From contig CAJUHL010000002.1 in NCBI GenBank assembly GCA_910586425.1, positions 35,175 through 94,073 of the forward strand: a stretch of 58,899 bases of DNA, in the 5' to 3' direction. The translations under genes were made by a program, and so were the position numbers. This stretch comes from an uncultured Bacilli bacterium. Its GTDB lineage: Bacteria; Bacillota_I; Bacilli_A; RF39; UBA660. Shown piece after piece: positions 8,108 through 58,899 of this stretch; the stretch's first letter is position 1, and each line of letters begins with the position of its first letter. Under the pieces are notes generated by a model. It saw nothing but the letters and a program-made list of their open reading frames with translations, was not told the DNA's origin and did no database searches.

Positions 8108-8167
8108 ATGATTATTAGGAAAATCAAACGACGGCGGTTGAAACCGCCAAAAAATAAAGTACAATGA
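8108..8167 (+). CDS. Possible 19-residue basic leader peptide
   Basis: ATG 8108 follows AAAGGGAG at proper distance. The peptide MIIRKIKRRRLKPPKNKVQ is very basic and contains Pro-Pro. A GGCGGTT/AACCGCC hairpin falls inside its codons, and its stop overlaps an ATG at 8164 that is in frame with the adhesin gene. This is the arrangement of a leader peptide controlling a downstream gene by stalling or coupling. Translation is not proven. Confidence 0.4.
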   Translation: MIIRKIKRRRLKPPKNKVQ

Positions 8168-8211
8168 AACTAGAGCGTAATGCTCACTTTTTTATAAAGA
8201 AAGGAGATTTT

Positions 8212-11736: not shown

Positions 11737-11750
11737 AAAGGAAATGAAAG

Positions 11751-13592: not shown

Positions 13593-13610
13593 TAAAACGG
13601 CAGATTCTAA

Positions 13611-42247: not shown

Positions 42248-43957
42248 ATGCCGTATACAAAAAGAATTGTCATTCATGCCGGACAAAACGGGAATGGATT
42301 ATCACAATGTTTGAATTATATCGAAAACGAAGAGAAAACCGATCATGGACTTTTGAAAAGTGCTTATAATTGTAATCTTCGTTTTGCGGAACAAGAAATG
42401 GTTGCTGTTCAATCTAAATTTCATAATGAGCAAGATGAAAGGGTGGCTTATCATGTCGTTCAGTCTTTTGACATTCGTGATAACATCACGCCTGAAATGG
42501 CAAACGAAATTGGATTGAAACTTTGTAAAGAAATCTATACAGATTATCAATGTGTCGTATGCACGCACGTCGATCGGGGACACCTTCATAATCACATCAT
42601 AATCAATGCTACAAATTTAAGTGGGAGAAAATTAGAAGATCGTCTTGCAAATAAAAAGGAAGGCTTATATGGATTGCGTGAATCAAGCGACCGCATCGCT
42701 AAATCATATGGATGCCATGTCATGGATGAAGTGAAAGCAATCGGACGCTTTAAAGGAAAAAATTATGAAGGGAAAAATGAATCTAGTTATGAAAAATTGA
42801 CCGTATCTTGGAAGTCGATTATTATTGACAAAATCGAAAAGGTGAAAGCAGAAACGAATAGCTTGGATGAATTGCTTGAAAACTTGGCTCTTGAAGGATA
42901 TGAAATCAAACGTGGAAAGTATATTAAAGTGAAGCCATTTGGAAAAGATCGCTTCACCAGTTTGAAAGAATTAGGTGAAGAATATGGCGAAGATGCACTT
43001 CGGCAGTTTTATCGTGAAAAAACGAGAAACGGTGTTGATTATCAATTTGACTTTGAAAAAATTCCTGAAATTCAAGGTGCATTCGTTTCGATTAAAGAAT
43101 CCGCCACTAACTCCATGATCGCAATTAAAAATTCGACTATGAATTTGGCAGAACGTGATTACTGTCCGAAATTTTATAACAACAGATACAAAGAGAAGAA
43201 ACGATATAACCAGTTGATTAAAGAACTAGATTTTTTAAATGCTGAAGAAATCTATTCGTATGAAGATTTGCAAAATCGGATCAAAGAAACGTTATCCGAA
43301 TTGGAAGAAAGAGAAGCAAGCTATGAAAAACAAAAATCATTGACAACGGAATTTTTAAAAAATGAACCGCTTGCAAAGGATTATCTTGAAACGTACAACG
43401 AATATAAAATCTATGAAGAACAGGTGCAGTTGCATGGCACAGAAAAAGTAGAACCTACGGAAGCAGTTTTAAAGCATTTACAAGTGAGTGAAGAACTTGG
43501 AAATCCTGAATTGAGCGAAGTGAGAGAATTTCTTTCAGCTTGCACAAAAGAAAAACGAGAAGCGAATAAACAGTATGCTTATATCACCTATCTAAAAAGT
43601 CGTATGACTGAATTGGAACGCATTCGTGGGAAGTCTTTGGAGTTGAACGGATATATCAAAGGTATGTCATTTAGTAGCAATATGATTGATGAATCCAGAA
43701 GCACGGATACTCAATATTGCGTCAAACTGCCTTATACAAAACAATATGTTTATCTGAATAAAAAGCTAGTGGCTTGGAGCAATTTTGAAAAACGTGCTGT
43801 CATGTATCTGGTCGATGATAAGTTCTACGATATTTACGATGAAAACGACAAAAAAATAGATAGTGTTTCCGGTGAACAGTTAGAAATAATTTCTAAAGAA
43901 GGAAGAGAACAAGTGAAAGAATATTATTCAACACTGAATACGGAGAGTGAGAAATGA
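42248..43957 (+). CDS. MOBP-type relaxase
   Basis: The 569-residue relaxase nicks and leads the transferred strand. The His triad is HLHNH (H112, H114, H116), followed by IIINATNLSGRKL; the candidate nucleophile is Y24 (CLNYIEN). The middle is charged and helical. Residues about 489-555 (KLPYTKQYVYLNKKLVAWS to DSVSGEQL) match the duplicated C-terminal domain of the element's primase. The GAAAGAGGGGA site precedes ATG 42248. It overlaps the class B sortase gene by 4 bases. Confidence 0.92.
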   Translation: MPYTKRIVIHAGQNGNGLSQCLNYIENEEKTDHGLLKSAYNCNLRFAEQEMVAVQSKFHNEQDERVAYHVVQSFDIRDNITPEMANEIGLKLCKEIYTDYQCVVCTHVDRGHLHNHIIINATNLSGRKLEDRLANKKEGLYGLRESSDRIAKSYGCHVMDEVKAIGRFKGKNYEGKNESSYEKLTVSWKSIIIDKIEKVKAETNSLDELLENLALEGYEIKRGKYIKVKPFGKDRFTSLKELGEEYGEDALRQFYREKTRNGVDYQFDFEKIPEIQGAFVSIKESATNSMIAIKNSTMNLAERDYCPKFYNNRYKEKKRYNQLIKELDFLNAEEIYSYEDLQNRIKETLSELEEREASYEKQKSLTTEFLKNEPLAKDYLETYNEYKIYEEQVQLHGTEKVEPTEAVLKHLQVSEELGNPELSEVREFLSACTKEKREANKQYAYITYLKSRMTELERIRGKSLELNGYIKGMSFSSNMIDESRSTDTQYCVKLPYTKQYVYLNKKLVAWSNFEKRAVMYLVDDKFYDIYDENDKKIDSVSGEQLEIISKEGREQVKEYYSTLNTESEK

Positions 43958-44700
43958 GAAGAAAAATTATAATGTGCATCCTTTATTTAACATTGATCGG
44001 ATCACTGATCCCGCTTATTCTTTTCACTTTAAAATATTTGGAAAGAAACGGAATTGATGACAAGGTGGAAAAGACCGTGGAGACGATCGAGGTTGATGAT
44101 CGTTCTTCGATTCAAAAAGCATTTGAAGAAATATGGGCAATCAATAAGGACGTGGTTGCCTTTCTTTATTTTCCGAATACCGATACATCTTTTCCTGTTT
44201 TGCAAACGTCTGACAACGATTTTTACTTGGATAAGAACTTATACAAAAAATACGATGAGCAAGGTTCGATATTCATGGACTATCGCTCCAATCCAGATTT
44301 TACATCTTACAATACTTTTGTATACGGGCATAACATTTTTGGGGGAAACGGGAAATTCTCGTTTTTAAAAAAATATATGGATGAATCATACTTTTTGAAA
44401 AATCCATCTTTTCAAGTCATCACTCCGAATGCGGTTTATCAAGCGGATATTTTTTCAGCTTATCTGGAAAAAGCCTTTTCGACTTCCAATCAGCCGGATA
44501 TTAAAAGCAGGGATAGCTTGAACATCTATTTTGATGAAGTCAAAGCAAAGAGTTTTTATTCAACCAATCCAGAGATTTCAGAAAATGACAACATGATAAC
44601 TTTATATACATGTGCTGATGTAGGCGGTTCACTTTCTTCTTTTTTGAACAGCACCGATCGTTATTTTGTTCATGCGATTTTAAAGAAAATGGAAAGCTAA
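43954..44700 (+). CDS. srtB: Class B sortase
   Basis: The 248-residue membrane-anchored transpeptidase has an N-terminal helix (about 6-26). Active-site residues are H126 (YGHNIFGG), C220 (TLYTCADV) and R236 (DRYFVHA). FMDYRSNPDF and DNDFYL are typical of class B. It may anchor element-coded surface proteins, for example the basal pilin with its atypical NVHTG signal. Being translationally coupled to the relaxase, it should be made at the time of transfer. Confidence 0.92.
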   Translation: MRRKIIMCILYLTLIGSLIPLILFTLKYLERNGIDDKVEKTVETIEVDDRSSIQKAFEEIWAINKDVVAFLYFPNTDTSFPVLQTSDNDFYLDKNLYKKYDEQGSIFMDYRSNPDFTSYNTFVYGHNIFGGNGKFSFLKKYMDESYFLKNPSFQVITPNAVYQADIFSAYLEKAFSTSNQPDIKSRDSLNIYFDEVKAKSFYSTNPEISENDNMITLYTCADVGGSLSSFLNSTDRYFVHAILKKMES

Positions 44701-45872: not shown

Positions 45873-45902
45873 ACTATACTACAGGATTTACAACATCCGC
45901 AA
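45873..45902 (-). promoter_or_regulatory. Promoter of the minus-strand gene
   Basis: On the - strand TTGCGG (45902-45897) and TATAGT (45878-45873) are 18 bp apart, just upstream of the AAAGGAG site. Confidence 0.5.
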
Positions 45903-45994
45903 TACTCTAGTGTTTTACCTGATTTTGCTATATTGAAAAACAATAAAAACCGTTTTAAATATTGCCAAAATAGGCGACTTTTTTTGAAAAAAAC

Positions 45995-46023
45995 TTGTGT
46001 TACTACACATTATGTAGTACAAT
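45995..46023 (+). promoter_or_regulatory. Regulon promoter 1 with 17-bp operator
   Basis: TTGTGT (45995-46000), a 17-bp spacer and TACAAT (46018-46023). The palindrome ACTACACATTATGTAGT (46002-46018) fills the spacer, so a bound protein would block RNA polymerase. The leader has an AGGAT/ATCCT hairpin directly before AAAGGAGAACAAC. Confidence 0.8.
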
Positions 46024-46069
46024 AAAGACAGATAGAAAAGGATAAAAAATCCTAAAGGAGAACAACAAA

Positions 46070-46327
46070 ATGACAAAATACATCGTGACTGAAACATATC
46101 CGTGGTCACCATCAAAATTCCAAACTAGAATTTCCGGAAATAAGTTGTATGACACAAAAAAAGAAGCATACAATGAAATTCGTCAATTGGTTCGTGAAGA
46201 ATTTGACGAAGAAGAACTTCCAGTTGTTTGTTCCTTTTACTACGAACCGCCCTATAAACGGTTTGTCTATGAACTGGATGGAAAGGTAGAAGTTATATAT
46301 CGCATCTGCCCTGTACAATTTGATTAA
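46070..46327 (+). CDS. Small hypothetical protein, first gene of ribozyme operon 1
   Basis: The 85-residue protein (starting MTKYIVTETYPWSPSKF, aromatic-rich, ending VIYRICPVQFD) has no known family; a DTKKEAYNEI segment looks like a short accessory-gene module. Its mRNA has the common leader, a small hairpin and AAAGGAGAACAAC. A hammerhead ribozyme begins 3 bases after its stop, so its message would be cut off from the next gene and carry ribozyme stems II and III at its 3' end. Confidence 0.65.
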   Translation: MTKYIVTETYPWSPSKFQTRISGNKLYDTKKEAYNEIRQLVREEFDEEELPVVCSFYYEPPYKRFVYELDGKVEVIYRICPVQFD

Positions 46328-46329
46328 AA

Positions 46330-46391
46330 ATCACCCTGATGAGTCTTGGAAGATTAAGACGAAACACAAGCAAACAGCTTGTGTCGGTGAT
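46330..46391 (+). ncRNA. Hammerhead ribozyme 1 (type I)
   Basis: All conserved parts are present. Stem I ATCACC (46330-46335) with GGTGAT (46386-46391); core CTGATGA (46336-46342); stem II GTCTT/AAGAC (46343-46347, 46356-46360) with an 8-base loop; GAAA (46361-46364); stem III CACAAGC/GCTTGTG (46365-46371, 46377-46383), with A64-U84 closing; and the cleavage base C46385 in GTC. After the cut, GGTGAT (46386-46391) can instead pair with ATCATC (46398-46403), a hairpin just before AAGGAG. Confidence 0.92.
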
Positions 46392-46418
46392 AAAAGAATC
46401 ATCAAGGAGAACAACACT

Positions 46419-46778
46419 ATGAAATACTACAGCACACTGAGACCATTATTTATTGGTTGTACGCCTAAACCAGAAGGAAACGACAGGATCATTAACTACG
46501 ATGAACCTAAATTCATTGATTCGATCGGTCGGGTAGCATTTGGTTATTTTGAAACAGATAAAAAAATCGAATACTCAAACTTCGATTTGATCCCTGAAAT
46601 GCAAGTATGGACTGTGACTTATAGAGTTATGAAAAATGGAGAACTCAAATATAAAATTCGTAAAGACAATTTAGATTTTCTTCCTGAACCTAAAACTAGG
46701 GGAGTGAAAGAAATCTCGTTTCTTTCGGAAACGGAAGCAAACAAATTTATCGAACAATTGAAAAAAGAAAATTGCTAA
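46419..46778 (+). CDS. Hypothetical protein downstream of ribozyme 1
   Basis: The 119-residue protein starts at ATG 46419, after AAGGAGAACAACACT. An in-frame extension to 46320 would run through the hammerhead ribozyme and is rejected. The sequence (IGRVAFGYFETDKKIEYSNF, LSETEANKFIEQL at the end) is beta-rich, then helical; no known family. It is the second gene of the operon from promoter 1 and would be translated from a cleaved message with a 5' hairpin. Confidence 0.65.
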   Translation: MKYYSTLRPLFIGCTPKPEGNDRIINYDEPKFIDSIGRVAFGYFETDKKIEYSNFDLIPEMQVWTVTYRVMKNGELKYKIRKDNLDFLPEPKTRGVKEISFLSETEANKFIEQLKKENC

Positions 46779-46793
46779 AAGGAGAATAACATC

Positions 46794-47321
46794 ATGACTA
46801 CTACATTTACTGAAAAAGAAATAGAATCCATCAAATCTACTTATCAATCTGAATTGGAAAAATACAATTCATTAAAAAAAGAAATTTCTAGTTTGCTGGA
46901 AATTCCCAACCTTGAAAAGTGGAATGGAAAAGTTTTGAACAAACGGTTTTGCAGTTTTTTAACAGAAAATTCTGATTGGAACGTTTATAGAGATTCTTGG
47001 GGTATCTATAAAATGACTTCATCGAAGTTTATAGATCGGCACCCATACTCTATTTCTTTTCAAAATCCTACTTATACAATCACCGATGAAGAAAATCGCA
47101 TTGATATTGAAAAATTTAAAAACAAGATTCAAAAACATATTGATTCGATTGATTCACGTATTGACACATTAAAAAGTTTCGATGTGGAGCTTGCATGTCA
47201 ATCAGCAAATGAAATTATTCGCATCCAAACCAAAAACGAAATTCCGTCATTGTATATGGAGACATACGAACAAAATCCATTGGTTGGTCGTTTATTCGCA
47301 GTAATGAAGATACAATATTAG
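46794..47321 (+). CDS. Hypothetical helical protein, 175 residues
   Basis: Coiled-coil-like N-terminal helix (about 5-36) and another near 105-130, with an aromatic middle part (DWNVYRDSWGIYKMTSSKF). AAAGGAGAATAAC before ATG 46794 is the same type of start site as its neighbours. It is the last gene of operon 1; a terminator overlaps its end (47320-47345). No family is recognised. Confidence 0.6.
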   Translation: MTTTFTEKEIESIKSTYQSELEKYNSLKKEISSLLEIPNLEKWNGKVLNKRFCSFLTENSDWNVYRDSWGIYKMTSSKFIDRHPYSISFQNPTYTITDEENRIDIEKFKNKIQKHIDSIDSRIDTLKSFDVELACQSANEIIRIQTKNEIPSLYMETYEQNPLVGRLFAVMKIQY

Positions 47322-47345
47322 TCGCTAAAACAAGCGACTTTTTTC
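47320..47345 (+). terminator. Terminator of operon 1
   Basis: AGTCGCT pairs with AGCGACT (47320-47326, 47333-47339), followed by six T. A related AGTCGC hairpin ends operon 2 at 48819. Confidence 0.8.
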
Positions 47346-47357
47346 TTTACAAAAAGT

Positions 47358-47386
47358 TTGCAGTACTACACATTATGTAGTATAAT
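47358..47386 (+). promoter_or_regulatory. Regulon promoter 2 with 17-bp operator
   Basis: TTGCAG (47358-47363), 17-bp spacer, TATAAT (47381-47386). Operator ACTACACATTATGTAGT at 47365-47381. The leader carries an AAGGT/ACCTT hairpin before GGAGGAGAACA. Confidence 0.85.
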
Positions 47387-47427
47387 AAAGGTAGATAAAA
47401 GGTAAACACCTTGGAGGAGAACAAAAT

Positions 47428-47787
47428 ATGACAACAAAATTTTTAGATTATTTGAAGAGCCTGAGAGATTATCATTCCGATAAAGCCGCAGAAATATGTG
47501 AGAAAAAATTACCAAACGAATACAATTTATGCGATATTGAAGATGTTCAAGCACAAATATTAACGTATCTTATTCGTAAAATAGAAGAAGATAGCATAGA
47601 ATACATTTCAGTAAACAAAGAAAAATTGATAAAAATCATTGATAGCATGTATGCAACAGGTGGAATGTGCAATATCGGATGTTGTTTGGATGAAGATAAA
47701 CCATGTGAGATTTGCCCATTCCATGAAAGAGATTTGGATACATACAAAAAGAACGTGATCACTTTTCTAACGAATGACGAATTTTAG
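47428..47787 (+). CDS. Hypothetical protein with Cys cluster
   Basis: The 119-residue helical protein has a cysteine-rich segment (GMCNIGCCLDEDKPCEICPF, about 88-107) that probably binds metal. The CEICPFHERD part recalls CFTCPFDDRS in the 79-residue protein at 45160. ATG 47428 follows GGAGGAGAACAAAAT, the regulon start site. It is the first gene of operon 2, which has no hammerhead ribozyme. Confidence 0.6.
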   Translation: MTTKFLDYLKSLRDYHSDKAAEICEKKLPNEYNLCDIEDVQAQILTYLIRKIEEDSIEYISVNKEKLIKIIDSMYATGGMCNIGCCLDEDKPCEICPFHERDLDTYKKNVITFLTNDEF

Positions 47788-47805
47788 AAAGAGAGATAGA
47801 CACCT

Positions 47806-48192
47806 ATGAATTTTTGGCAAATCAAGGGAAAATACGGAATAAATAAAACCGATCAGAAAAAAGTGGAAGAAATCAAGAAAAGTATTTTAGAAAAAGGGTG
47901 GATTGGATGCCCGATCCTTATCAATGGTGACGAATTATTAACAGGATCTCATAGACTGGAAGCCTTGAAACAGCTTAACGATTACGAAGGCGACAAAGAA
48001 ATTGAAGATCGGATTTCAGACATTTTAGATAATGACGATATTGCAGAAGACGTGACCGATATTGTAGAGGCAAACTTTCAAAAGTTTTACGAAGAAAATG
48101 GATACTATCCAGACATTGAATACGATCAAATCGGATGGATGCTTGAAGGATCATGGGTCGAAGAATATGAAGAGGAAATAGGTGAATGGTAA
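47806..48192 (+). CDS. Small ParB/Srx-like domain protein
   Basis: The 128-residue protein starts with a piece of the ParB N-terminal fold: VEEIKKSILEKGWIGCPILI, then GDELLTGSHRLEALKQL, where TGSHRLEA takes the place of the GERRYRA motif of ParB. The C-terminal half is acidic. Such stand-alone domains act as nucleases or modification-linked proteins in some elements; here no role is shown. It overlaps the next gene by 7 bases. Confidence 0.65.
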   Translation: MNFWQIKGKYGINKTDQKKVEEIKKSILEKGWIGCPILINGDELLTGSHRLEALKQLNDYEGDKEIEDRISDILDNDDIAEDVTDIVEANFQKFYEENGYYPDIEYDQIGWMLEGSWVEEYEEEIGEW

Positions 48193-48827
48193 AAGCGATT
48201 AGAAAATGTGCGGAGTGTGGGCAAATCTATACTCCTGTTGTCAAAGATCCGTCACTGTCGTATCTTTGCCCAACTTGTGCTAGTAAAAGGCGTGATAATG
48301 CAGTATATCAAGATAAAATTTGCGAAAAATGCGGAAAACCATTTGTAGGCTTTCCAAGCTCTAAGTATTGCGATAAATGTGTTTATTACGCAAAAGCAGA
48401 CGCAAAAAAGCGTTATCAAACGAATAAGGACAATCGGCGACCGCTTGGAACGATAGATACTTGTCAACGTTGCGGGAAAGAGTATGTTGTAAAAGGGGGA
48501 TTGCAAAAGTATTGTCCAGATTGTGCAAAACAAGCCAATCTGGAAAAGCAAAGAGAAAGAAAGAAAAGTCAACGTGAGCGAAAAAAACGTGCCGAAGCGA
48601 AAAAAATCGCTTCTCAAAATCGCATTAAGGTTTGTGTGTATTGCGGAAAAGAATTTAACAACGCTGTTTCGGGCAATCTTTGTAGTGAGGAATGTAGAAA
48701 AAAACAGGCAAATCTTACCCATCTTCGATGCTTGCATAAGAAAGGGAAAGTGTCGAATGAGCGTATGAGTCAAGCAGAAAGAGAACAACAAAAAGAATGG
48801 CAAAAAAACATTTTAAAGAGTCGCTAA
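48186..48827 (+). CDS. Multi zinc-ribbon protein
   Basis: The 213-residue, very basic protein has four or so zinc-ribbon units, each with CxxC pairs: CAECG..CPTC, CEKCG..CDKC, CQRCG..CPDC, CVYCG..C..C. A Lys/Arg-rich helix lies between the third and fourth. It probably binds nucleic acid; tandem ribbons of this kind are frequent in phage and plasmid genes of unknown role. It overlaps its upstream neighbour and ends at the terminator of operon 2. Confidence 0.7.
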   Translation: MVKAIRKCAECGQIYTPVVKDPSLSYLCPTCASKRRDNAVYQDKICEKCGKPFVGFPSSKYCDKCVYYAKADAKKRYQTNKDNRRPLGTIDTCQRCGKEYVVKGGLQKYCPDCAKQANLEKQRERKKSQRERKKRAEAKKIASQNRIKVCVYCGKEFNNAVSGNLCSEECRKKQANLTHLRCLHKKGKVSNERMSQAEREQQKEWQKNILKSR

Positions 48828-48845
48828 AATGGGCGACTTTTTTTG
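48819..48845 (+). terminator. Terminator of operon 2
   Basis: AGTCGC (48819-48824) pairs with GCGACT (48833-48838), then a run of T. The stem starts inside the last codons of the zinc-ribbon gene. Confidence 0.75.
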
Positions 48846-48853
48846 AAAAAAAC

Positions 48854-48882
48854 TTGCAATACTACACAATGTGAAGTACAAT
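48854..48882 (+). promoter_or_regulatory. Regulon promoter 3 with degenerate operator
   Basis: TTGCAA (48854-48859), 17-bp spacer, TACAAT (48877-48882). Operator ACTACACAATGTGAAGT (48861-48877) has an imperfect right half, so binding may be weaker. The leader has an AGGAT/ATCCT hairpin before AAAGGAGAACAAC. Confidence 0.75.
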
Positions 48883-48928
48883 AAAACCAGATAGAAAAGG
48901 ATGCAATATCCTAAAGGAGAACAACAAA

Positions 48929-49228
48929 ATGACATTGAAACAACTTTTGAACACAGGAAAAGAGTTAGATTGTGAATTATTTGGAAATTTTGAAACAAGA
49001 GCAAGTCTTGTATGGGATGATGATATAAGTTTGACGGATGAAGGTTATAAACACTTTCAACCTATTATGGACTGTCCAATCACATGTTTGTCAAATGGGG
49101 ACATTCAAGTTTTAGTGGGTGACGATTTAGACGATCGGTTGTCAGAAATGGTCGATGATTTCGTTTTGTCGGTTGCCGGTTATTGCCCATCATCAAGCTA
49201 TGATAAGTGGTTTAAAATTTCAAATTAA
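48929..49228 (+). CDS. Small hypothetical protein, first gene of ribozyme operon 3
   Basis: The 99-residue acidic protein (MTLKQLLNTGKELDCELFGN at the start) resembles, by length and by the GDIQVLVGDDLDDRLSEMV segment, small modules of mobile elements, but I cannot name a family. It has the regulon leader and start site. Its stop codon is followed after one base by hammerhead ribozyme 2. Confidence 0.62.
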   Translation: MTLKQLLNTGKELDCELFGNFETRASLVWDDDISLTDEGYKHFQPIMDCPITCLSNGDIQVLVGDDLDDRLSEMVDDFVLSVAGYCPSSSYDKWFKISN

Positions 49229-49229
49229 A

Positions 49230-49289
49230 TCGCCCTGATGAGTCTTGGAAGATTAAGACGAAACACAAGCAAACAGCTTGTGTCGGTGA
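49230..49289 (+). ncRNA. Hammerhead ribozyme 2 (type I)
   Basis: Same architecture as copy 1: stem I TCGCC (49230-49234) with GGTGA (49285-49289), now with a G-U pair; core CTGATGA (49235-49241); stem II GTCTT/AAGAC; GAAA; stem III CACAAGC/GCTTGTG; cleavage after C49284. The new 5' end can fold as GGTG (49285-49288) with CACC (49297-49300), directly before AAGGAGAACA. The base change in stem I keeps pairing. Confidence 0.92.
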
Positions 49290-49315
49290 TGGAAAGCACC
49301 AAGGAGAACAGCAAC

Positions 49316-49570
49316 ATGGGAAAAGACGCATTAGAAGAATTGGGCTTCTCTAAAAGCCGTGATAACAAATCAGATGTCTGGAAGAAAGGAAAAAAAAGAA
49401 AGAGAATTATTACAAGAAACCAAAAGAGCGAATGGTTCGTTATGTTAGAAACATATTCAGTCGGAAATTTAGAGTGGTTTTGTGATTCTTTCAAAAACGA
49501 AGAAATCCTTGCCATTGCGTCAATTATCAATCATGAGGAGAACAACTATGAAAAGAGAAGATGCAATTGA
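49316..49570 (+). CDS. Small basic protein downstream of ribozyme 2
   Basis: The 84-residue protein starts at ATG 49316; the in-frame extension to 49238 lies in the ribozyme and is rejected. It has a very basic segment (KKGKKRKRIITRNQKSEW), then EWFVMLETYSVGNLEWFCD. It may bind nucleic acid. It overlaps the DUF2786 gene by 23 bases. Confidence 0.6.
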   Translation: MGKDALEELGFSKSRDNKSDVWKKGKKRKRIITRNQKSEWFVMLETYSVGNLEWFCDSFKNEEILAIASIINHEENNYEKRRCN

Positions 49571-50189
49571 ACGTATTAAAAAATTGATGGCGATTACTCA
49601 TGAATCTGGAGCAACGGATTCAGAAGTTTTTACAGCTATTACAATGGCGGACAAACTAAGAATCAAATACAAGATTGAAAAAAATGAGATCCCGTCAAAT
49701 TCGGATTCGGATGAAATTGAAGAAAGCGAACCACTTGAAGTTAAGTACGGATACTATGTTTATCCAATCTTGACTTTGGCAAAACATTTCCGATGCAATA
49801 CTCTAAGAGTTGGACGTTTGAACGGAAGCGATGTATTGCTTTATGCTTGTGGATTCAAAGAAGATGTTGAACTTTTTATTCCTGTGGCAAAGGCGATGAT
49901 AAAATATCTGGATCAAACCTTATTTGACAAATCTACACAATATCCATCCAAAAAGCAGAAATACAGCTATTTGATAGGATTTGCCGACGGTCTTAGAAGT
50001 GCTTTAGAAGAATCTTTAAAGGAATTGAATTTAGAAAAAAAGTATGAATTAGCGGTCGTTGGAGTACCAGCGGTTGTGGAAGAATTTTCCCTAAAGAATG
50101 CGACTCGTGCATCAATGACAAACTGGGACGACATAGATTATTTCACGTACGCCATGGGTTACACCGAAGGATTAAATTATAAAATTTGA
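49548..50189 (+). CDS. DUF2786-like protein
   Basis: The 213-residue protein begins with EDAIERIKKLMAITHESGAT and EVFTAITMADKLRIKYKIEK, the typical helix pair of DUF2786 proteins (usually KLLALA..AxxxExxxAxxxAxxLM). The C-terminal part fits the domain found beside it (GFADGLRSAL). Such proteins are common in phages and plasmids, function unknown. ATG 49548 follows GAGGAGAACAAC; the ATG at 49482 lies within the previous gene. Confidence 0.7.
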   Translation: MKREDAIERIKKLMAITHESGATDSEVFTAITMADKLRIKYKIEKNEIPSNSDSDEIEESEPLEVKYGYYVYPILTLAKHFRCNTLRVGRLNGSDVLLYACGFKEDVELFIPVAKAMIKYLDQTLFDKSTQYPSKKQKYSYLIGFADGLRSALEESLKELNLEKKYELAVVGVPAVVEEFSLKNATRASMTNWDDIDYFTYAMGYTEGLNYKI

Positions 50190-50202
50190 AAAGGAGAAAA
50201 AA

Positions 50203-50517
50203 GTGAGGATAAACCAGATACGGAACAGGGAAGAGTCGTATTTTATTGGCTCAGGTGCGGAATGTGATTTATATGAAATCCGATTAAAAAACGGATGTTT
50301 GTATTGTGCTGACACAATGGACGAATTGGCACGATCTGGATTCCCGCACATTGCGGAAGAATACGATCACGATGCCTACGAAGCAGCAATTGAAAGGTTT
50401 AATGCTTCCGCCGGGATGGATGATCGCCCGTGTGTTCCATTGCCAGAGCATTTTAGATTAGATAAAGAATCTATTCCCGACGTAGAATGGAAATTTAGAT
50501 TTGGAGGAAGAATATGA
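50203..50517 (+). CDS. Hypothetical protein with GTG start
   Basis: The 104-residue acidic protein starts at GTG 50203, 7 bases after AAGGAG, and overlaps the following gene by 4 bases (ATGA). Segments such as GAECDLYEIRLKNGCLYCADT and FNASAGMDDRPCVPLP are not known to me. It is the fourth gene of operon 3. Confidence 0.58.
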   Translation: MRINQIRNREESYFIGSGAECDLYEIRLKNGCLYCADTMDELARSGFPHIAEEYDHDAYEAAIERFNASAGMDDRPCVPLPEHFRLDKESIPDVEWKFRFGGRI

Positions 50518-50849
50518 AAATTAAATACAGTTTATACTTGAAATTGTATAAGGTTGCTGAAAGATGCAATACTTATGGCGATTTCCAAAAGCACTTTTCA
50601 GATAAGAAGCGAAAAGAGGATGGCATTACAGAAGAAATGCTATCGGAAGTTTGGCAGACAGTTAAATCATCGCCTGCCGATTTCTGTGGTTCAAACAAAA
50701 CTGTTGACCTTGAAAAGTTAGGAAAAAAACTTGGAATCAACGATAGAACCATCAAAAACTGGGTTTGGGATAGAAAGCATATCCCGGATTCTATTCGACT
50801 TTTCTTAGGATATATTTTCTTGATAGATGAAGAAATCAAGAAAAATTAA
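50514..50849 (+). CDS. Helix-turn-helix protein, candidate regulator
   Basis: The 111-residue protein has a good helix-turn-helix-like stretch at about 64-95 (DLEKLGKKLGINDRTIKNWV). The N-terminus is helical and basic. It is the last gene of operon 3, just before regulon promoter 4, so it is one candidate for the repressor that binds ACTACA-N5-TGTAGT (inference only). It could equally be an unrelated phage-type regulator. Confidence 0.6.
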   Translation: MKIKYSLYLKLYKVAERCNTYGDFQKHFSDKKRKEDGITEEMLSEVWQTVKSSPADFCGSNKTVDLEKLGKKLGINDRTIKNWVWDRKHIPDSIRLFLGYIFLIDEEIKKN

Positions 50850-50861
50850 AAGAAAAAAGGT

Positions 50862-50890
50862 TTGCATTACTACACATTGTGTAGTATAAT
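50862..50890 (+). promoter_or_regulatory. Regulon promoter 4 with 17-bp operator
   Basis: TTGCAT (50862-50867), 17-bp spacer, TATAAT (50885-50890). Operator ACTACACATTGTGTAGT at 50869-50885. Leader hairpin AAGGT-AAG-ACCTT before GGGGAGAACAAC. Confidence 0.85.
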
Positions 50891-50930
50891 AGAGACGGAT
50901 AAAAGGTAAGACCTTGGGGAGAACAACAAC

Positions 50931-51290
50931 ATGGAAAAAGCAATTTACAAAGTAGTTTCAATGCGTTATGGAACTGAACACGGCTTTTATAACTTTGTAA
51001 ACAAAAAATACGAAGAAGAATTTAGCAACTTTGAGGATGCCGAGGAAGTTTACAACGACTGTATTGAACAGGCAAAATCGAGCGATAACTATGCTTATCT
51101 GCGGGGGGACTACCCGTATGATTGCATTTCATTATCAAAAGATGGTGAAATCATCAAACAAATTGATTATGAAATCGAAGATTCTCAATATCGGGACATG
51201 CCCGAAATTTCTGAGGATGAAGAAGTGGAATGGACATTAGATGAAATCCGTGATCTTGAACAACAAAGTCTTGAAGAATATGAGGATTGA
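50931..51290 (+). CDS. Acidic hypothetical protein from promoter 4
   Basis: The 119-residue protein is strongly acidic, with the last 35 residues almost all Glu/Asp-rich (ending QQSLEEYED). The N-terminal half (YKVVSMRYGTEHGFYNFVNK) has a small-domain look as in other accessory genes here. It is the only gene of its transcript: a palindromic terminator follows at 51322. No family is recognised; the acidic end could make it a DNA-mimic candidate. Confidence 0.6.
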   Translation: MEKAIYKVVSMRYGTEHGFYNFVNKKYEEEFSNFEDAEEVYNDCIEQAKSSDNYAYLRGDYPYDCISLSKDGEIIKQIDYEIEDSQYRDMPEISEDEEVEWTLDEIRDLEQQSLEEYED

Positions 51291-51321
51291 ATCAACAGCT
51301 TTGAATAAGTGAATAGAAAAA

Positions 51322-51334
51322 GGAACTCAGTTCC
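51322..51334. repeat. Palindrome copy 11 (terminator)
   Basis: GGAACTCAGTTCC with A and T arms, between the acidic gene of promoter 4 and the parB-like gene. Confidence 0.85.
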
Positions 51335-51356
51335 TTTTTCTTATGAACAAGAATGG

Positions 51357-51396
51357 TGCTATAATAATTTAAGTGGTCTACAAAAACAAGCCACTT
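51357..51396 (+). promoter_or_regulatory. Promoter and leader hairpin of the parB-like gene
   Basis: TGC-TATAAT (51357-51365) is an extended -10 with poor -35. The leader forms AAGTGG (51371-51376) with CCACTT (51391-51396), just before GGAGAGGAG. The ACTACA operator is absent, so this gene is outside the regulon. Confidence 0.5.
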
Positions 51397-51414
51397 GATG
51401 GAGAGGAGACACTT

Positions 51415-52314
51415 ATGAGCATGATTGATGAGATTTACGGCGGAACAGTAGGAACACAGATGGCAAGCAACAAGCCTGTTTTTGAACTGATTCATGTAAA
51501 CGATATTCGTCCAAATAAATTGAACTTCTTCCATATTTACGATGAGGAAGTCCAAGCGTTAGCAAACGAAATTGAGCGGGAAAATGTTAATAACGGGCGT
51601 GTCTACTATCAAGAAGACAGCGACGGAAAACACTATACTCTGATCGGTGGTGAAACACGTTATAGAGCTTTGCTTCTTTTGTACAATGAAGGTCGCCATG
51701 ATGGCATGTTCCCGATGTATATTGTACGAAAACCGGAAAGTGAAGTTGAAGAACTCTCGATGATTATGGGTGACAACCATCAACGTTATTTGTCCGAAGA
51801 GGATAAAAGAGTCATTATTCAAAATTACGAGAAGGTTTACGAGCATTACAAACAAAAGGACAAAGAGCTGGATCGTCAAATAAAATCTGCCGAAAATCCG
51901 TTGCAAGCTGAGCTTTTGGAAGAAAAAAGGTGCATCCAAAAAGGTACTTCAAAAAGAGATTGGATCGCCACGAAAACCAATTTTATCAATCGGGATGGAA
52001 CAAACATTTCTGGGCGACAAGTTCAAAAGTATTTGACGGGCGAATTTTCCGGAAAAGAGCAGAAAAAAGAACCCGCAAAGAAGCCAAAAGAAAAAGCTAC
52101 TTCGGAATCGACGAATGCGATCAAAGAAGTGCTAAAAGCCGTAAAACAGCATCTGGTTGATGTGACGGACGCAGGAATCAACATTACTGAAAAAAAGCTC
52201 ACGATCACGTATGCGAATATATACGATCTGGATCGTATCTTGGGAGCTTTGAAAGATGATGAAGAATTGAATCATATTACTTCATCGTTTATTCGAGCGG
52301 AAAGGTCAAAGTGA
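51415..52314 (+). CDS. ParB-like partition protein
   Basis: The 299-residue protein has a ParB/Spo0J N-terminal domain: box with GGETRYRA (G78-A85) in the place of GERRYRA, and DNHQRYL (D120-) in the place of ENxQR. The C-terminal half is a Lys/Glu-rich linker and a small end domain. It is separated from the ParA gene by 3 kb and has its own promoter, unlike usual parAB operons. ATG 51415 follows GGAGAGGAG; the GTG at 51373 lies in the leader hairpin. Confidence 0.8.
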   Translation: MSMIDEIYGGTVGTQMASNKPVFELIHVNDIRPNKLNFFHIYDEEVQALANEIERENVNNGRVYYQEDSDGKHYTLIGGETRYRALLLLYNEGRHDGMFPMYIVRKPESEVEELSMIMGDNHQRYLSEEDKRVIIQNYEKVYEHYKQKDKELDRQIKSAENPLQAELLEEKRCIQKGTSKRDWIATKTNFINRDGTNISGRQVQKYLTGEFSGKEQKKEPAKKPKEKATSESTNAIKEVLKAVKQHLVDVTDAGINITEKKLTITYANIYDLDRILGALKDDEELNHITSSFIRAERSK

Positions 52315-52517
52315 TGGAAAAGATAAAACAATGCCTTTCCCACGCAGTGAAGTTATTGCCCTATGGATTTATGCTTTTGATAGCGATGTTTATCGGCTAT
52401 TGGGCTAAAAACTGGATTGAATTGATTTTGGGAATGCTTTTGTTCGATATGATTATCATTTGCTATGAACTAAAGTTTTCTAAACAACAAAAATATGAAG
52501 AAAGTGAGGAAAAATGA
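52314..52517 (+). CDS. Small membrane protein
   Basis: The 67-residue protein has two hydrophobic segments (about 16-32 and 36-53), then a charged tail. ATG 52314 overlaps the ParB stop (TGATG), and its own end overlaps the next gene by 4 bases. Function unknown. Confidence 0.58.
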   Translation: MEKIKQCLSHAVKLLPYGFMLLIAMFIGYWAKNWIELILGMLLFDMIIICYELKFSKQQKYEESEEK

Positions 52518-52846
52518 CAATCGTTGACACTTTGGATGTAGTTTGTGAAGTAATAAAAGAATCATCCACACATGAAATTAGCAATTGGAAAAAGAACATG
52601 TATTTTGGTTACGATCAAGAAATCATAATTCGTAATCCAAAAAAATATCTTGTATTGGTAATAAGAAGTGCTTTTGAAAGAACTCTTCATGTTGGGTTTG
52701 ATCGAGCGGTGCTTGATGCGAAAGAAAAAACACTGATTTTATCTAAAAACGATGCAAATTGTCGAAAGGTGACTGATCGAATCCATGTTGATCAGTATGA
52801 CAGTCTCTATTTTTTAGAGGTATCTTGTATTGCTGATAAAAATTGA
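52514..52846 (+). CDS. Hypothetical protein, 110 residues
   Basis: This is a soluble protein with alternating strands and helices (IIIRNPKKYLVLVIRSAFER; ending SLYFLEVSCIADKN). It is translationally coupled (ATGA-type overlap) to the small membrane protein. No family is recognised. Confidence 0.55.
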   Translation: MTIVDTLDVVCEVIKESSTHEISNWKKNMYFGYDQEIIIRNPKKYLVLVIRSAFERTLHVGFDRAVLDAKEKTLILSKNDANCRKVTDRIHVDQYDSLYFLEVSCIADKN

Positions 52847-52872
52847 AACCGTAAAATAGGAAGGAAATTAAA

Positions 52873-53214
52873 ATGAGTTTTTCAAAAACTGTACGAAAAA
52901 AGGTGTACGATAAATTCGGTAGACGTTGTGCTTATTGCGGTGAAAAAATTGAATTGAAAGATATGCAAGTCGATCATGTCAAATCTATTCGTCAAGGTGG
53001 AACAGATGATTTTGACAATTTGTTTCCTAGCTGTCGATCATGCAATCATTACAAGAGATCAATGGACTTGGAAGGATTTAGAGAGTATTTAAAAACATTG
53101 CATGAACGAATCGCTAAGAATTACATCGTGAAAGTAGGTATGAATTATGGAATGGTTGATTTAAAACCATTCGATGGAACTTTCTATTTTGAATTTTTCA
53201 ACGCTACAAAGTAG
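52873..53214 (+). CDS. HNH endonuclease family protein
   Basis: The 113-residue protein has CAYCG (two cysteines), then MQVDHVKSIRQGGTDDFDNL with the catalytic DH, and CRSCNHYK: the full C-x2-C / DH / N / C-x2-C pattern of HNH nucleases. It is a stand-alone nuclease, perhaps used in DNA processing or against competing DNA. AGGAAGG precedes ATG 52873. Confidence 0.88.
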   Translation: MSFSKTVRKKVYDKFGRRCAYCGEKIELKDMQVDHVKSIRQGGTDDFDNLFPSCRSCNHYKRSMDLEGFREYLKTLHERIAKNYIVKVGMNYGMVDLKPFDGTFYFEFFNATK

Positions 53215-53313
53215 AAACAAAATTAAAAAATGGGGAATAAAGGATGTAAAAAATAAGGAGAAAAAGGGAGTTTCCTCTCATGATGAATCATGTATATCCG
53301 CTCCGAAAATTGT

Positions 53314-53625
53314 ATGAACAAGGTAATCATGACTGGGCGTATTTCGACGAATTTGGAATTGAAAACTTTTGGGGAATCGAAAGTCGTTAATTTCGATTTA
53401 GCTGTGAAAGAAAAAGAAACATTGTTTGTAGCCTGCACCGCATGGAACAAGACCGCTGAAATGTTGTGCAAATACACTGACAAAGGATCGCATATCTTGG
53501 TGGAAGGAAAGTTAGCTAAAAACGAATATGTCAATAAGAATGGAAACAAAATTCAGAAAATGTTTATTCATGTAGAGAGAATAGAATTTTTGAGTTTTAA
53601 AAACAAGGGAACGCAGGATGAATAA
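53314..53625 (+). CDS. ssb: Single-stranded DNA-binding protein
   Basis: The 103-residue protein has the OB-fold pattern of SSB: MNKVIMTGRISTNLELKTFG at the start, FVACTAWNKTAEMLCKYTDKG in the middle, VEGKLAKNEY later. It is short and lacks the usual acidic C-terminal tip (DDDIPF), so it probably does not recruit host proteins in the usual way. The start is unusual: no ribosome site is seen before ATG 53314 (nor before ATG 53290), but a 36-codon frame (53281-53391) after AGGGAG overlaps it and may couple translation. Confidence 0.8.
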   Translation: MNKVIMTGRISTNLELKTFGESKVVNFDLAVKEKETLFVACTAWNKTAEMLCKYTDKGSHILVEGKLAKNEYVNKNGNKIQKMFIHVERIEFLSFKNKGTQDE

Positions 53626-54640
53626 ACACACCTGTGTTCCTTTGGAACTTGTAAAGCAATATTCTCGAAAATACACGAATTGCTGGGAAAAAATCGACTA
53701 TGAGAAATCTGGTTTCAACGAAGAATATCCAGCAATAAAATCAATCGCTCGTGTAGTCATGAGCAAAAAACGGAAAAATTCGGATAAGATCGCCTATATG
53801 CATGATACAACGATCGACTTGGAAATGCTTTATGCTTTGAGTTTGTGGAGAAAAAATAAGCAAATTTATAGTTTTTTTGGTGAACTGGAAGAACTTTTGT
53901 ACGAACAATCTACGGATGATTTTAGTGTTCCTGTAGATGTTTTACAAAATCTTCCTTTTCCGTGTATTTTCATTGAAACAAAAAAATTGGATATGATGGA
54001 TGTGCTTGGCTTTTTTGCCTTTTATCTGGTAAAAGAAAACAAGAAGCAATTTCGATTGATGCTCGTCACAAAAGATTTTTTACTTCCGGTACCGGTTTAT
54101 TTGGCAAAGAATCAAAACATAAAGAATGTGTTCTCTCAAATATTTGACCGCTATTCGTCTTTTACGCAAAAAAGGCATCCATGTCCTGAACAGGATTACA
54201 AAAGGCAAGCCGATCAATATATTCATGTCGTCAATTCAGCGATGCAGCTTCTTCTTTACATTTGTGCTCAGAATGCGGAGATAAGTGAAAAGATTGAAAG
54301 TAGAAAGGCATATAAGAAAAGCCTTGAAAATATAAAAGATCAGTTTAAAGAAGTAAGACAGTTTGAGTGTGGAAAGAAGACTTCGGAAATTATTAGAAAA
54401 ACATTCAAAACACATTCTTCCGAAATGGCGGACGATGAACCGCAAATCGTTTTCTTGCAAAAGACTGGAAACAAAAAAAGACCACATGTTCGTAAAGGGC
54501 ATTGGCATCATTATTGGATCGGGAGCAAGAAAGGGAAGAATCGTCAGCTAAAATTAAACTGGATCGCTCCGTCGATCATTCACCAAGAGGTGTTCGATGA
54601 AGCGAAAATTCCGACTACAATCAATCAAATTTATGATTAA
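53618..54640 (+). CDS. Candidate AcrVA2-like anti-CRISPR protein
   Basis: The 340-residue protein has the C-terminal signature RPHVRKGHWHHYWIGSKKGK then LKLNWIAPSI. This looks like the end of AcrVA2-family proteins, which are about 320 residues long and spread among mobile elements. AcrVA2 itself blocks Cas12a by acting on its message during translation; homologues in hosts without Cas12a are known, so the target here is open. The N-terminal two-thirds is not distinctive. It overlaps ssb by 8 bases. My assignment rests on the C-terminal motif and length and needs a profile search. Confidence 0.55.
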   Translation: MNKHTCVPLELVKQYSRKYTNCWEKIDYEKSGFNEEYPAIKSIARVVMSKKRKNSDKIAYMHDTTIDLEMLYALSLWRKNKQIYSFFGELEELLYEQSTDDFSVPVDVLQNLPFPCIFIETKKLDMMDVLGFFAFYLVKENKKQFRLMLVTKDFLLPVPVYLAKNQNIKNVFSQIFDRYSSFTQKRHPCPEQDYKRQADQYIHVVNSAMQLLLYICAQNAEISEKIESRKAYKKSLENIKDQFKEVRQFECGKKTSEIIRKTFKTHSSEMADDEPQIVFLQKTGNKKRPHVRKGHWHHYWIGSKKGKNRQLKLNWIAPSIIHQEVFDEAKIPTTINQIYD

Positions 54641-54657
54641 AAAAAGAGAAAAAGAGT

Positions 54658-54686
54658 TTGTATCACTACATATTATGTAGTATAAT
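54658..54686 (+). promoter_or_regulatory. Regulon promoter 5 with 17-bp operator
   Basis: TTGTAT (54658-54663), 17-bp spacer, TATAAT (54681-54686). Operator ACTACATATTATGTAGT (54665-54681) is a perfect palindrome in both 6-base arms. Leader hairpin AAGGT-AAG-ACCTT before GGGGAGAACAAC. Confidence 0.85.
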
Positions 54687-54725
54687 AAAGACAGATAAAA
54701 GGTAAGACCTTGGGGAGAACAACAT

Positions 54726-55175
54726 ATGAAAAAATTCTATATTGTAAATGAAAAACGGTTAGAAATCAGTTATCCACGTGAAGCCAAAAAAATAATTCGT
54801 GGATTAACCATTGAGGAAGCGATTAACGAGCATATGGGCGAAGATGAGGACAACTATGCACTTGTCATCACAACAGATAAGCAGGTTGCTGAAAAAGCAC
54901 TGAAAGAGTATCAAAGTGAATGTCGATATAATCCTTATAATAAAGTTTACTTAATTGAGTATGCGACTTTAGAGGAAATTGAAATCGAACTTGACGATGT
55001 ATGGGATGAAGATGATCGCAAGAGACTTGAATCCTTTAAGGGTACAATCGAAGGCAATGATATGGATATGAAGGTATCGTATGAGCTTTTTAACCTCATT
55101 GAAGAAAATTATAAATACTTGGATTTTTATTATAACAACGATTTTGTCAAACTAAAAATCACGGATTTTGATTAA
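54726..55175 (+). CDS. Acidic hypothetical protein, first gene of the parA ribozyme operon
   Basis: The 149-residue acidic protein (starting MKKFYIVNEKRLEISYPREA) has segments such as GEDEDNYALVITTDKQVAEKA, possibly a small alpha/beta fold. No family is recognised. It has the regulon leader and start site, and ribozyme 3 follows its stop by 11 bases, separating it from parA. Confidence 0.62.
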   Translation: MKKFYIVNEKRLEISYPREAKKIIRGLTIEEAINEHMGEDEDNYALVITTDKQVAEKALKEYQSECRYNPYNKVYLIEYATLEEIEIELDDVWDEDDRKRLESFKGTIEGNDMDMKVSYELFNLIEENYKYLDFYYNNDFVKLKITDFD

Positions 55176-55186
55176 AGAATCGAATA

Positions 55187-55248
55187 ATCACCCTGACGAG
55201 TCTTGGAAGATTAAGACGAAACACAAGCAAACAGCTTGTGTCGGTGAT
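55187..55248 (+). ncRNA. Hammerhead ribozyme 3 (type I), upstream of parA
   Basis: Stem I ATCACC (55187-55192) with GGTGAT (55243-55248); core CTGACGA (55193-55199; the variable seventh base is C); stem II GTCTT/AAGAC; GAAA; stem III CACAAGC/GCTTGTG; cleavage after C55242. The freed 5' end can form GGTG (55243-55246) with CACC (55257-55260), directly before AAGGAGAACAAC of parA. Confidence 0.92.
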
Positions 55249-55276
55249 AGAAAAGACACCAAGGAGAACAACAACT

Positions 55277-56185
55277 ATGGCAATTACTTATAACATTTTG
55301 AACCGCAAAGGTGGCGTAGGCAAAACGGAAACCGCCTTGAACATGGCATACGGGCTTTCGCAAGCTGGTTATAAAACTTTGTTTATTCCGCTTGATCCAC
55401 AGGCAAACGGTCAATCCACCCTGCTAAAAGATGATAACGAAGTCAGTGAACAGGATGCGATCAACATTCGGGAATGGTACGACGAATGCAAAGATGCGAA
55501 CGGCATCTTGAAAAGTTATAAAGCATTGGCATCAAGAGGATTTACGAAAGAACGAAAATATCAGACGGATATTAACGACGTTCTCAAAAAACCTATTTTG
55601 GTAAAGGATGCGATTTACAAGACGAAATATCCAAACTTGGATATTATTCCTGCATCGGATGAATTGTCGATGACCGACGGATTCTTGAAATTGTCGGGTA
55701 AAAATCCATCTGCAAAATTACGTACAGCACTTTCCTATGTTGACAATGATTACGATGTAATCATCATTGACAATAGCCCGTTTGAAAGTTCGCTCACCTA
55801 CAACGGCGTGTGTGCATGTTGTCATGAAGGGGACACAATTATTGTTCCTCTGAATATTTCCGATCGCTCTATCAACGGATTGGGTGCCACGATTGAGATT
55901 TTGATCGAATGGATTAAAGAAGAACGTCTTCCTTATGACGTAAAATTGCTGATTACGTTGAAACAACGGAACAAAATCAATGAGGAGTGGATTAAAACTT
56001 TGCGTCATATCTTTCCAGAAAGAGTGTTCAAACAGGAAATTCGTTTTCAAGGAAAACCAGTCGAATTGGCAGCACTCAACAATCGCATCCTGCTAGAAGA
56101 TCCTTTGACTTCGGGCGTAAAGGAAGACTATCAAAAATTCCTTCATGAGATTATGGAAGACTTACAAAGCAAGTTAGGGCATTAG
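55277..56185 (+). CDS. parA: ParA-type partition ATPase
   Basis: The 302-residue protein has the deviant Walker A motif KGGVGKT (K11-T17), Walker A' LDPQANGQST and IIIDNSP. It lacks an N-terminal DNA-binding domain, so it is of the shorter ParA/Soj-like type. It would work with the ParB-like protein at 51415 or the small proteins that follow to keep the element. ATG 55277 follows AAGGAGAACAACAACT; the in-frame extension to 55238 starts inside the ribozyme and is rejected. Its dose is probably set by the operator and the ribozyme. Confidence 0.92.
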   Translation: MAITYNILNRKGGVGKTETALNMAYGLSQAGYKTLFIPLDPQANGQSTLLKDDNEVSEQDAINIREWYDECKDANGILKSYKALASRGFTKERKYQTDINDVLKKPILVKDAIYKTKYPNLDIIPASDELSMTDGFLKLSGKNPSAKLRTALSYVDNDYDVIIIDNSPFESSLTYNGVCACCHEGDTIIVPLNISDRSINGLGATIEILIEWIKEERLPYDVKLLITLKQRNKINEEWIKTLRHIFPERVFKQEIRFQGKPVELAALNNRILLEDPLTSGVKEDYQKFLHEIMEDLQSKLGH

Positions 56186-56187
56186 CA

Positions 56188-56391
56188 ATGGAAAAGATTG
56201 TAAATTGCAAAAGGCTCATTGGAGCCTTGGAACGTGTTCTTTATGCTGAGGATGTGAAGCAACGCATTCATGTCCTCGCAAAAGAATTGAACTATGACGA
56301 AGAACAATTAGAAACTGATCTTCGTGCGTTAGAAGAAAGCCGTCTTATTTATATTTTGGGGGAGAATGATGACACAACAAATAAAGAATAG
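56188..56391 (+). CDS. Small winged-helix-like protein after parA
   Basis: The 67-residue protein (AEDVKQRIHVLAKELNYDEEQ, then LRALEESRLIYIL) looks like a small winged helix with the final beta hairpin. It begins 2 bases after the parA stop. In this place it may be a partition partner or autoregulator (inference). It overlaps the next gene. Confidence 0.55.
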   Translation: MEKIVNCKRLIGALERVLYAEDVKQRIHVLAKELNYDEEQLETDLRALEESRLIYILGENDDTTNKE

Positions 56392-58813: not shown

Positions 58814-58899
58814 TGGCGGAGTAGAGAGGATTTGAACCTCCGCGCCAGTTGCCCGACCTACACCCTTAGCAGGGGCGCCTCTTCAGCCTCTTGAGTACT
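58814..58899 (-). tRNA. tRNA-Ser (anticodon GCT), 5' end cut by the window
   Basis: On the - strand the D-arm (CTCAAGAGGCTGAAGAG), an anticodon loop with GCT, a long variable arm (GGTCGGGCAACTGGC) and the T-arm GGAGG-TTCAAAT-CCTCT are seen. The encoded 3' CCA ends at 58814. The first 5 bases of the acceptor stem (predicted GGAGT) lie outside the window. The tRNA 3' end faces the element. Confidence 0.93.

Follow-up and report, generated by a model that had tools for sequence, protein, structure and literature searches.

The subject of this report is a regulon in a 58,899-nt stretch of DNA from an uncultured Bacilli bacterium (assembly GCA_910586425.1, contig CAJUHL010000002.1, positions 35,175 to 94,073 of the forward strand; hereafter the window), which appears from its genes to be a conjugative plasmid. 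Five promoters in the window share one operator, and in three of the operons a hammerhead ribozyme lies between the first gene and the second. We propose, with a confidence a little better than even, that each operon is divided by its ribozyme into two mRNAs and that the second of them is capped by a hairpin, which the freed strand of stem I would form directly before the ribosome-binding site. Ribozymes between genes are already known; what is new here is the prediction that the stem I strand, once freed, refolds into a 5′-terminal hairpin.

The three ribozymes, HH1, HH2 and HH3, occupy positions 46330..46391, 49229..49290 and 55187..55248 of the plus strand. As the initial annotation had it, they are complete type I hammerheads, each located between the stop codon of a first gene (genes at 46070, 48929 and 54726) and the start of the next (46419, 49316 and 55277), with C46385, C49284 and C55242 as the predicted scissile bases. 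All three have the core CUGANGA ... GAAA ... UH, with cleavage expected after H, and complete stems I, II and III: stem I is 6 bp long and open, II and III are closed by loops, and stems II and III are identical among the three. A 51-base core starts at 46336, 49235 and 55193, and only the variable base of CUGANGA differs among the copies. A pattern of the core alone has three matches in the window, exactly HH1–HH3, against 0.23 expected, and a chance origin of the motifs was rejected on this count. In a search with the hammerhead covariance models, the check that had been suggested, RF03152 (RAGATH-1) was returned for all three (32.7 bits for HH1, 30.8 for HH3 and 25.5 for HH2) and RF00163 for HH2 (24.6), all under the gathering scores of 56.3 and 34, respectively. 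RF00163 is unlisted for HH1 and HH3, RAGATH-1 being the only Rfam family listed for these two. The same kind of scan, up to E=5, gave no match to glmS. Because the Rfam scores are below threshold, the identification is carried by structure and comparison: core pattern and stems in all three cases, and a related element in those of HH1 and HH3. HH1–HH3 would likely cut their messages between the first and second genes.

Downstream of each predicted cut, the freed 3′ strand of stem I meets a second complement. The HH1 product is predicted to open with the hairpin GGUGAU-AAAAGA-AUCAUC (46386..46403, plus strand; −3.6 kcal/mol), the HH2 product with GGUG-AUGGAAAG-CACC (49285..49300, plus; −3.4) and the HH3 product with GGUG-AUAGAAAAGA-CACC (55243..55260, plus; −2.2). 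AAGGAG follows in each case, so AA separates hairpin from GGAG. The predicted probability of the hairpin after cleavage is 0.98–1.0 for the three products. Both hammerhead products of the related element, called L014 and described below, are also predicted to fold a 5′-terminal hairpin. The RAGATH-1 model has its extra hairpin upstream of stem I, whereas the extra hairpin predicted in the window lies downstream of the cut.

The primary transcripts of the regulon show a similar format. Leader hairpins are predicted just before the Shine–Dalgarno sequence (SD) in operons 1 to 5, at 46039..46053 (−3.2 kcal/mol), 47399..47412 (−2.7), 48898..48912 (−3.5), 50903..50915 (−2.1) and 54699..54711 (−2.1), all on the plus strand. 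A hairpin of at most −2 kcal/mol lies no more than 4 nt from the SD at all eight regulon starts (5 promoters, 3 ribozymes) and at 6 of 47 comparison genes, namely the remaining genes on the plus strand that have ATG and SD (Fisher p = 2.5e-6, a generous value because the regulon copies are related). At HH3 the best hairpin near the SD uses bases that precede the cut, and the hairpin of the product itself (−2.2) still passes the −2 limit. Processed and primary leaders share one format, with hairpin, SD, an AACAACA-like spacer and AUG; promoter-started and ribozyme-started units would therefore receive the same kind of 5′-end. The six leaders of L014 have hairpins of altered sequence.

The proposed course of events is as follows. 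The operon would be transcribed, stem I would pair and the hammerhead would cut. The 5′ part would retain the first gene, with the stems of the ribozyme as its 3′-end. The 3′ part would start with a 5′-OH and refold the freed stem I strand with its downstream complement into the hairpin, which may help the product to be released and may shield the 5′-OH end from 5′-to-3′ decay of the RNase J type. Within one operon, the first gene and those behind it would then have mRNA lifetimes independent of each other. In leaving a 5′-OH mRNA by self-cleavage upstream of a coding region, the predicted reaction resembles that of the glmS ribozyme riboswitch, although glmS depends on a metabolite, is destabilizing and belongs to another ribozyme class (PMC3997798). 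The glmS precedent also suggests the opposite outcome, namely that the exposed 5′-OH lowers the output of the downstream genes, since RNase J1 degrades the 5′-OH fragment of glmS (PMC3997798). Such control of dosage by decay is close to the view of the initial annotation, in which the ribozyme sets a different stability or dose for first and later genes. A difference of this sort is possible, but we find its production by decay improbable: the products in the window would open with a hairpin and an SD, and B. subtilis mRNA can be stabilized by a hairpin or a ribosome-binding site close to its 5′-end (PMC3997798).

A closer parallel is RiboJ, a synthetic insulator made of a hammerhead and a 23-nt hairpin (Clifton et al., 2018, PMC6206723; see also PMC7536230 and PMC8794103). 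RiboJ is reported to raise transcript on average twofold and protein by a factor of two to ten, and its authors suggest that the terminal hairpin may stabilize the mRNA (PMC6206723). In both arrangements a hammerhead is followed by a hairpin ahead of the ribosome-binding site, such that the cleaved mRNA starts with the hairpin; in the window, the hairpin between cut site and ribosome-binding site is a prediction. As described, RiboJ is engineered, follows a promoter and has its 23-nt hairpin added, whereas the arrangement here is natural, intergenic and reuses the 3′ strand of stem I.

The related element L014 allows the design to be compared at some distance: its ParA is 94% identical to that of the window in the best segment, and the DNA is about 72–80% identical in long blocks. 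L014 has six copies of the operator and two hammerheads. One hammerhead is behind the homologue of gene 46070 (41% identity) and leads straight into the homologue of gene 46794 (66%). The other precedes ParA, and the first gene in front of it has no similarity to gene 54726. The repeated order of operator, gene, ribozyme and gene, which the initial annotation had pointed out, is thus real in the window and is kept for two of the three ribozymes in a diverged relative. Order and structure are preserved while one first gene is exchanged. The interpretation built on this order stands in part; the further claim that the second genes would be translated only from messages with a self-made 5′-end is not supported. 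When the five hammerheads of the window and L014 are aligned, 92 of 92 scored cells pair, against at most 50% in slid versions. In stem II two pair changes are compensated (UA to GC and UA to CG), and stem III has one further change of this kind. The covariation score of the alignment was matched by 2 of 500 shuffles, in a test that has little power because there are just five sequences.

Hammerheads with the stem II of the window occur elsewhere. The exact stem II is present in 10 viral contig stretches and in an Agathobaculum phage, and a close variant in a crAss-like phage; in both phages the motif lies between annotated genes. With up to 2 mismatches allowed, it is found in 2 of 98 relative genomes; of 392 genomes from the phylum, one matches a degenerate stem II pattern. 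One locus, L135 (G008), in another genome of the family, has an exact copy of the stem II motif and yet is not type I by our detector; it possibly has another topology. The hammerhead sets used here and below come mostly from viral contigs and are samples, not a census. Among the distinct matches of the stem II pattern that were listed, 90 of 120 are full type I hammerheads with a stem I of at least 4 pairs (5 matches at contig edges stand beside the 120). The corresponding mean is 10.6 when the upstream strands are swapped and 0.3 when the downstream sequence is shuffled. A pattern like GUCNNUGARAAUUNNGAC in which position 2 of stem II is not T, and its partner not A, was found in no viral contig, against at least 120 for the GUC/GAC form, which suggests a base-specific constraint on the second pair of stem II.

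The position of these hammerheads relative to genes is also far from random. Where the contig has sufficient flank, 102 of 164 hammerheads have a stop upstream and a start downstream, compared with 13% of random places; 22 of 164 fall within a frame of 60 aa or more on the same strand, compared with 63%. The stop of a frame with 60 codons or more falls within 14 nt before the core in 160 of 279 hammerheads, against 4.8% of random places, and where the stop is that close its median distance from the core is 5 nt. Some viral contig stretches shorter than 15 kb (L134, L040, L057 and L082) have 5–6 type I hammerheads each among those listed, many lying a short way ahead of a start codon.

How general is the hairpin? 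Each hammerhead product was scored by the best hairpin starting within its first three bases, and products with −3 kcal/mol or lower were counted as carriers. Hammerheads were dropped if any stem had fewer than 4 pairs, if the product was shorter than 60 nt or if its first 45 bases resembled an earlier one, which reduced the four scans from 270 rows to 238 and then 192, from 144 to 131 and 78, from 28 to 27 and 15, and from 40 to 32 and 13. For the counts of position relative to genes given above, loci near contig ends were left out (28/192 and 19/298). A first hairpin test, with 22 of 130 hammerheads at p ≤ 0.05, is superseded by the following. In the first scan, 54 of 192 non-redundant hammerheads are carriers; the shuffled mean is 13.3, and none of 200 shuffled sets exceeds 25. 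The count falls to 17.5 (largest 25) when freed strands are exchanged between hammerheads matched for length and first-base class, and to 20 when the strand is reversed. The excess is concentrated at the very start of the product: 39 hairpins start at nt 1 (8.2 expected), 22 at nt 2 (4.9) and 8 at nt 3 (3.9), against 1 at nt 4 (2.3) and 2 to 4 at each of nt 5–9 (2.2–2.7). All scans pooled, 66 of 298 are carriers vs. 19.4 after shuffling, the largest of 200 sets having 28. Products whose first base is G or C account for 44 of these (44/111 vs. 10.9). In the 192, the excess exists both with an SD-like site (31/99 vs. 6.2) and without one (23/93 vs. 7.2), and the named phages AB434P2 and cr272_1 have the hairpin. 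In sum, the 5′-terminal hairpin is above chance, a feature of a minority of hammerheads and dependent on class.

These comparisons bear on another account of the window, in which ribozyme and leader are a cassette that has spread by duplication or recombination without a role in splitting, the hairpin being a by-product of the shared leader sequence. The three copies in the window are indeed close to identical along a 51-base stretch, and the relatives have different first genes in front of ParA. However, the 5′-terminal hairpin is found with many different sequences, and the compensated stem changes in L014, together with the complete hammerheads (90 of 120) whose stem I varies, argue for selection of the ribozyme. 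We regard the cassette account as decidedly improbable.

Several observations weigh against the proposal of operon splitting with a hairpin cap. In the wider family, 232 of 298 hammerheads have no 5′-terminal hairpin. Products starting with A or U have it less often, at 22 of 187 (8.0 expected); a Wilcoxon test on mean energies gives p = 0.78. The class with a GCC/GGC stem II is weak at 7 of 78 vs. 3.6, a value reached in 12 of 200 shuffled sets (at a limit of −4 kcal/mol it has 6 vs. 1.9, and 0 of 200 sets are as high), and the small later sets give 3/15 vs. 0.7 (6 of 200 as high) and 2/13 vs. 0.9 (47 of 200). Hairpins are also in excess at starts 12–14 (13 vs. 5.5) and, in the 298, at start 6 (8 vs. 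3.5), so that the flush position is the main peak and not the sole one. Beyond the window the hairpin is not linked to the SD, as an SD-like site follows within 40 nt in 31 of 54 carriers, at a median gap of 12 nt. Closer to home, the three hammerheads and five leaders of the window share ancestry, and two leaders of L014 are weak, one at −0.9 and the other at −1.5 and away from the SD. In L014 the homologue of gene 48929 (66% identity) is followed by the next operator-promoter, and HH2 has no counterpart there. The count of three double-changed pairs in the five-sequence alignment was reached in 55 of 500 shuffles. Ribozyme and operator-like palindrome are both absent from the 2.7–3.9 kb stretches around five more distant ParA genes (L238–L242, 35–41% identity; 5/5). 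With RiboJ itself, the gains in transcript and protein are reported to be poorly correlated (PMC6206723).

Also on this side of the balance is the predicted fold before cleavage. In nearest-neighbour ensembles of the uncleaved RNA of the 54 carriers, the median probability is 0.04 for stem I and 0.81 for the hairpin. For HH1–HH3 stem I has 0.17, 0.29 and 0.67, and for both L014 copies 0.00. The folding models are without the tertiary contacts of the hammerhead, and even non-carriers reach only 0.52 for stem I. The hairpin might nevertheless slow or block cleavage.

The dominance of the hairpin before cleavage would be expected if the downstream complement were an anti-stem I, the two exclusive folds making a switch that cleaves only once stem I is favored by a protein, by salt or by translation of the first gene. 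The closeness of the stop codon fits such a switch as well: with a stop 5 nt before the core, a ribosome terminating there would, by the size of its footprint, cover the 5′ strand of stem I. A hairpin starting at nt 4 or 5 would also break a stem I of 5–6 bp, yet such starts, unlike starts 1 and 2, are not in clear excess (starts 4 and 5 have 1 vs. 2.3 and 2 vs. 2.6 in the 192, and 3 vs. 4.1 and 6 vs. 3.6 in the 298), which favors a cap over a switch. Moreover, stem I can presumably form first during transcription. We consider a switch rather unlikely, although it is a serious rival, and retain the hairpin-capped split as the working explanation.

In the regulon in which the ribozymes are embedded, the operator, TACTACACATTATGTAGTA, has 10 matches in the window at up to 3 mismatches, which are five places read on both strands, and none in 100 shuffles. 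At each place it is the palindrome within the 17-bp spacer of a promoter with TTGNNN and TAYAAT: 45995..46023 (operon 1), 47358..47386 (operon 2), 48854..48882 (operon 3), 50862..50890 (operon 4) and 54658..54686 (operon 5), all on the plus strand. The five promoters of the initial annotation, beginning at 45995, 47358, 48854, 50862 and 54658, are exactly these, and no further copy of the operator is present in the window. A sigma-70 scan by itself is no evidence, as it gives 44 promoter-like sites in the window and 32.4 in shuffles. Operons 2 and 4 are without a ribozyme.

In operon 1, the first gene (46070..46327, plus strand like all genes of this paragraph) encodes 85 aa with no family found and is 41% identical to its counterpart in L014. 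The second (46419..46778), behind HH1, has a DarA_C domain (defence against restriction; E=1.3e-8). It is followed by a third gene (46794..47321), whose homologue in L014 (66%) is directly behind the ribozyme, and by a terminator-like hairpin and T run (47320..47339, plus) at the end of the operon. Operon 3 begins with a gene for an acidic protein of 99 aa (48929..49228; 66% identical in L014), and its second gene (49316..49570) encodes 84 aa without a Pfam family. The first gene of operon 5 (54726..55175) specifies an acidic protein of 149 aa with no family found, dissimilar to the first gene at that place in L014. Its second gene (55277..56185) is parA (AAA_31, E=1.1e-31; a ParA-like partition protein in PHROGs). 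The five operator-proximal genes (46070, 47428, 48929, 50931 and 54726) all encode short proteins without a family in Pfam or PHROGs, and all five have a net negative charge (−3 to −24). DNA-mimic anti-restriction proteins are likewise negatively charged. A small protein encoded at 50514..50849, with a weak match to YdaS (helix-turn-helix type) and 47% identity in L014, is a candidate regulator or repressor of the regulon.

The assignment of the window to a conjugative plasmid comes from its gene content. It encodes a Rep3 initiator (156–1244), a primase, a TraG-type coupling protein, ArdC, a MobA/VirD2-type relaxase, a lysozyme/CHAP protein and a TraG-P-loop/AAA_10 ATPase that we label VirB4-like, and it also carries sortase and pilin-like proteins. 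SpaA/pilin-like proteins, of which one has an LPXTG anchor, and sortase are located at 8164–15483 and 43954–44700 and suggest surface pili. A prophage was considered and rejected in view of Rep3, the primase, the coupling protein, the relaxase and ParA; among the part of the genes that was scanned, phage-type matches are limited, an example being Phage_lysozyme2 in 28418–31060. A contig nearly identical to the window exists (L013), and a megablast of 45900–56200 against plasmid and phage collections gave no match. The name plasmid maintenance regulon, used at first, fits only in part: the region has ParA and a weak ParB_N match, but SSB, the DarA_C domain protein and an HNH protein are encoded in it as well. 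Elsewhere in the window, a ToxN-type toxin (Pfam E=3.8e-34), belonging to a type III toxin-antitoxin system, is encoded at 5078–6055. A tRNA-like match (33.2 bits) at 58817–58899 on the minus strand is interrupted by the right edge of the window, and ARAGORN finds no tRNA in the window.

Bacterial hammerheads numbering in the hundreds were described in 2011, when their function was unclear; in prophages they flank individual genes, several lying close together around one gene or a short block of genes (Perreault et al., 2011, PMC3088659). In the window, too, and in the viral stretches L134, L040 and L082, several neighbouring hammerheads on the transcribed strand flank one gene or a short block. 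The resemblance extends to an anti-restriction gene behind the ribozyme, ardA in the prophage case (PMC3088659) and the DarA_C gene behind HH1 here. Unlike the prophage hammerheads, those described here reside in plasmid-type DNA, belong to one operator family, are behind the operator-proximal gene and have the hairpin predicted from the freed stem I strand. This hairpin goes unmentioned in the parts of Perreault et al. (2011, PMC3088659) drawn upon here, and a hairpin-capping arrangement of hammerheads was not found in print in the open-licence literature of PubMed Central.

In closing, we tentatively extend the proposal to bacterial mobile elements at large, at somewhat less than even confidence. 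They may use hammerheads right behind stop codons as operon splitters with a built-in cap, a strand of stem I serving first in catalysis and then in protection; in the window the device would be wired into an operator regulon in which promoter-made and ribozyme-made mRNAs have the same leader. The recurring 5′-terminal hairpin provides a prediction about the purpose of cleavage that can be addressed by mutation: independent, end-protected mRNAs from one promoter. If true, the arrangement would be a natural counterpart of the widely used synthetic part RiboJ, which engineers built independently. It also suggests a way in which a plasmid may set the mRNA lifetime of a first gene separately from that of the genes behind it in the operon.

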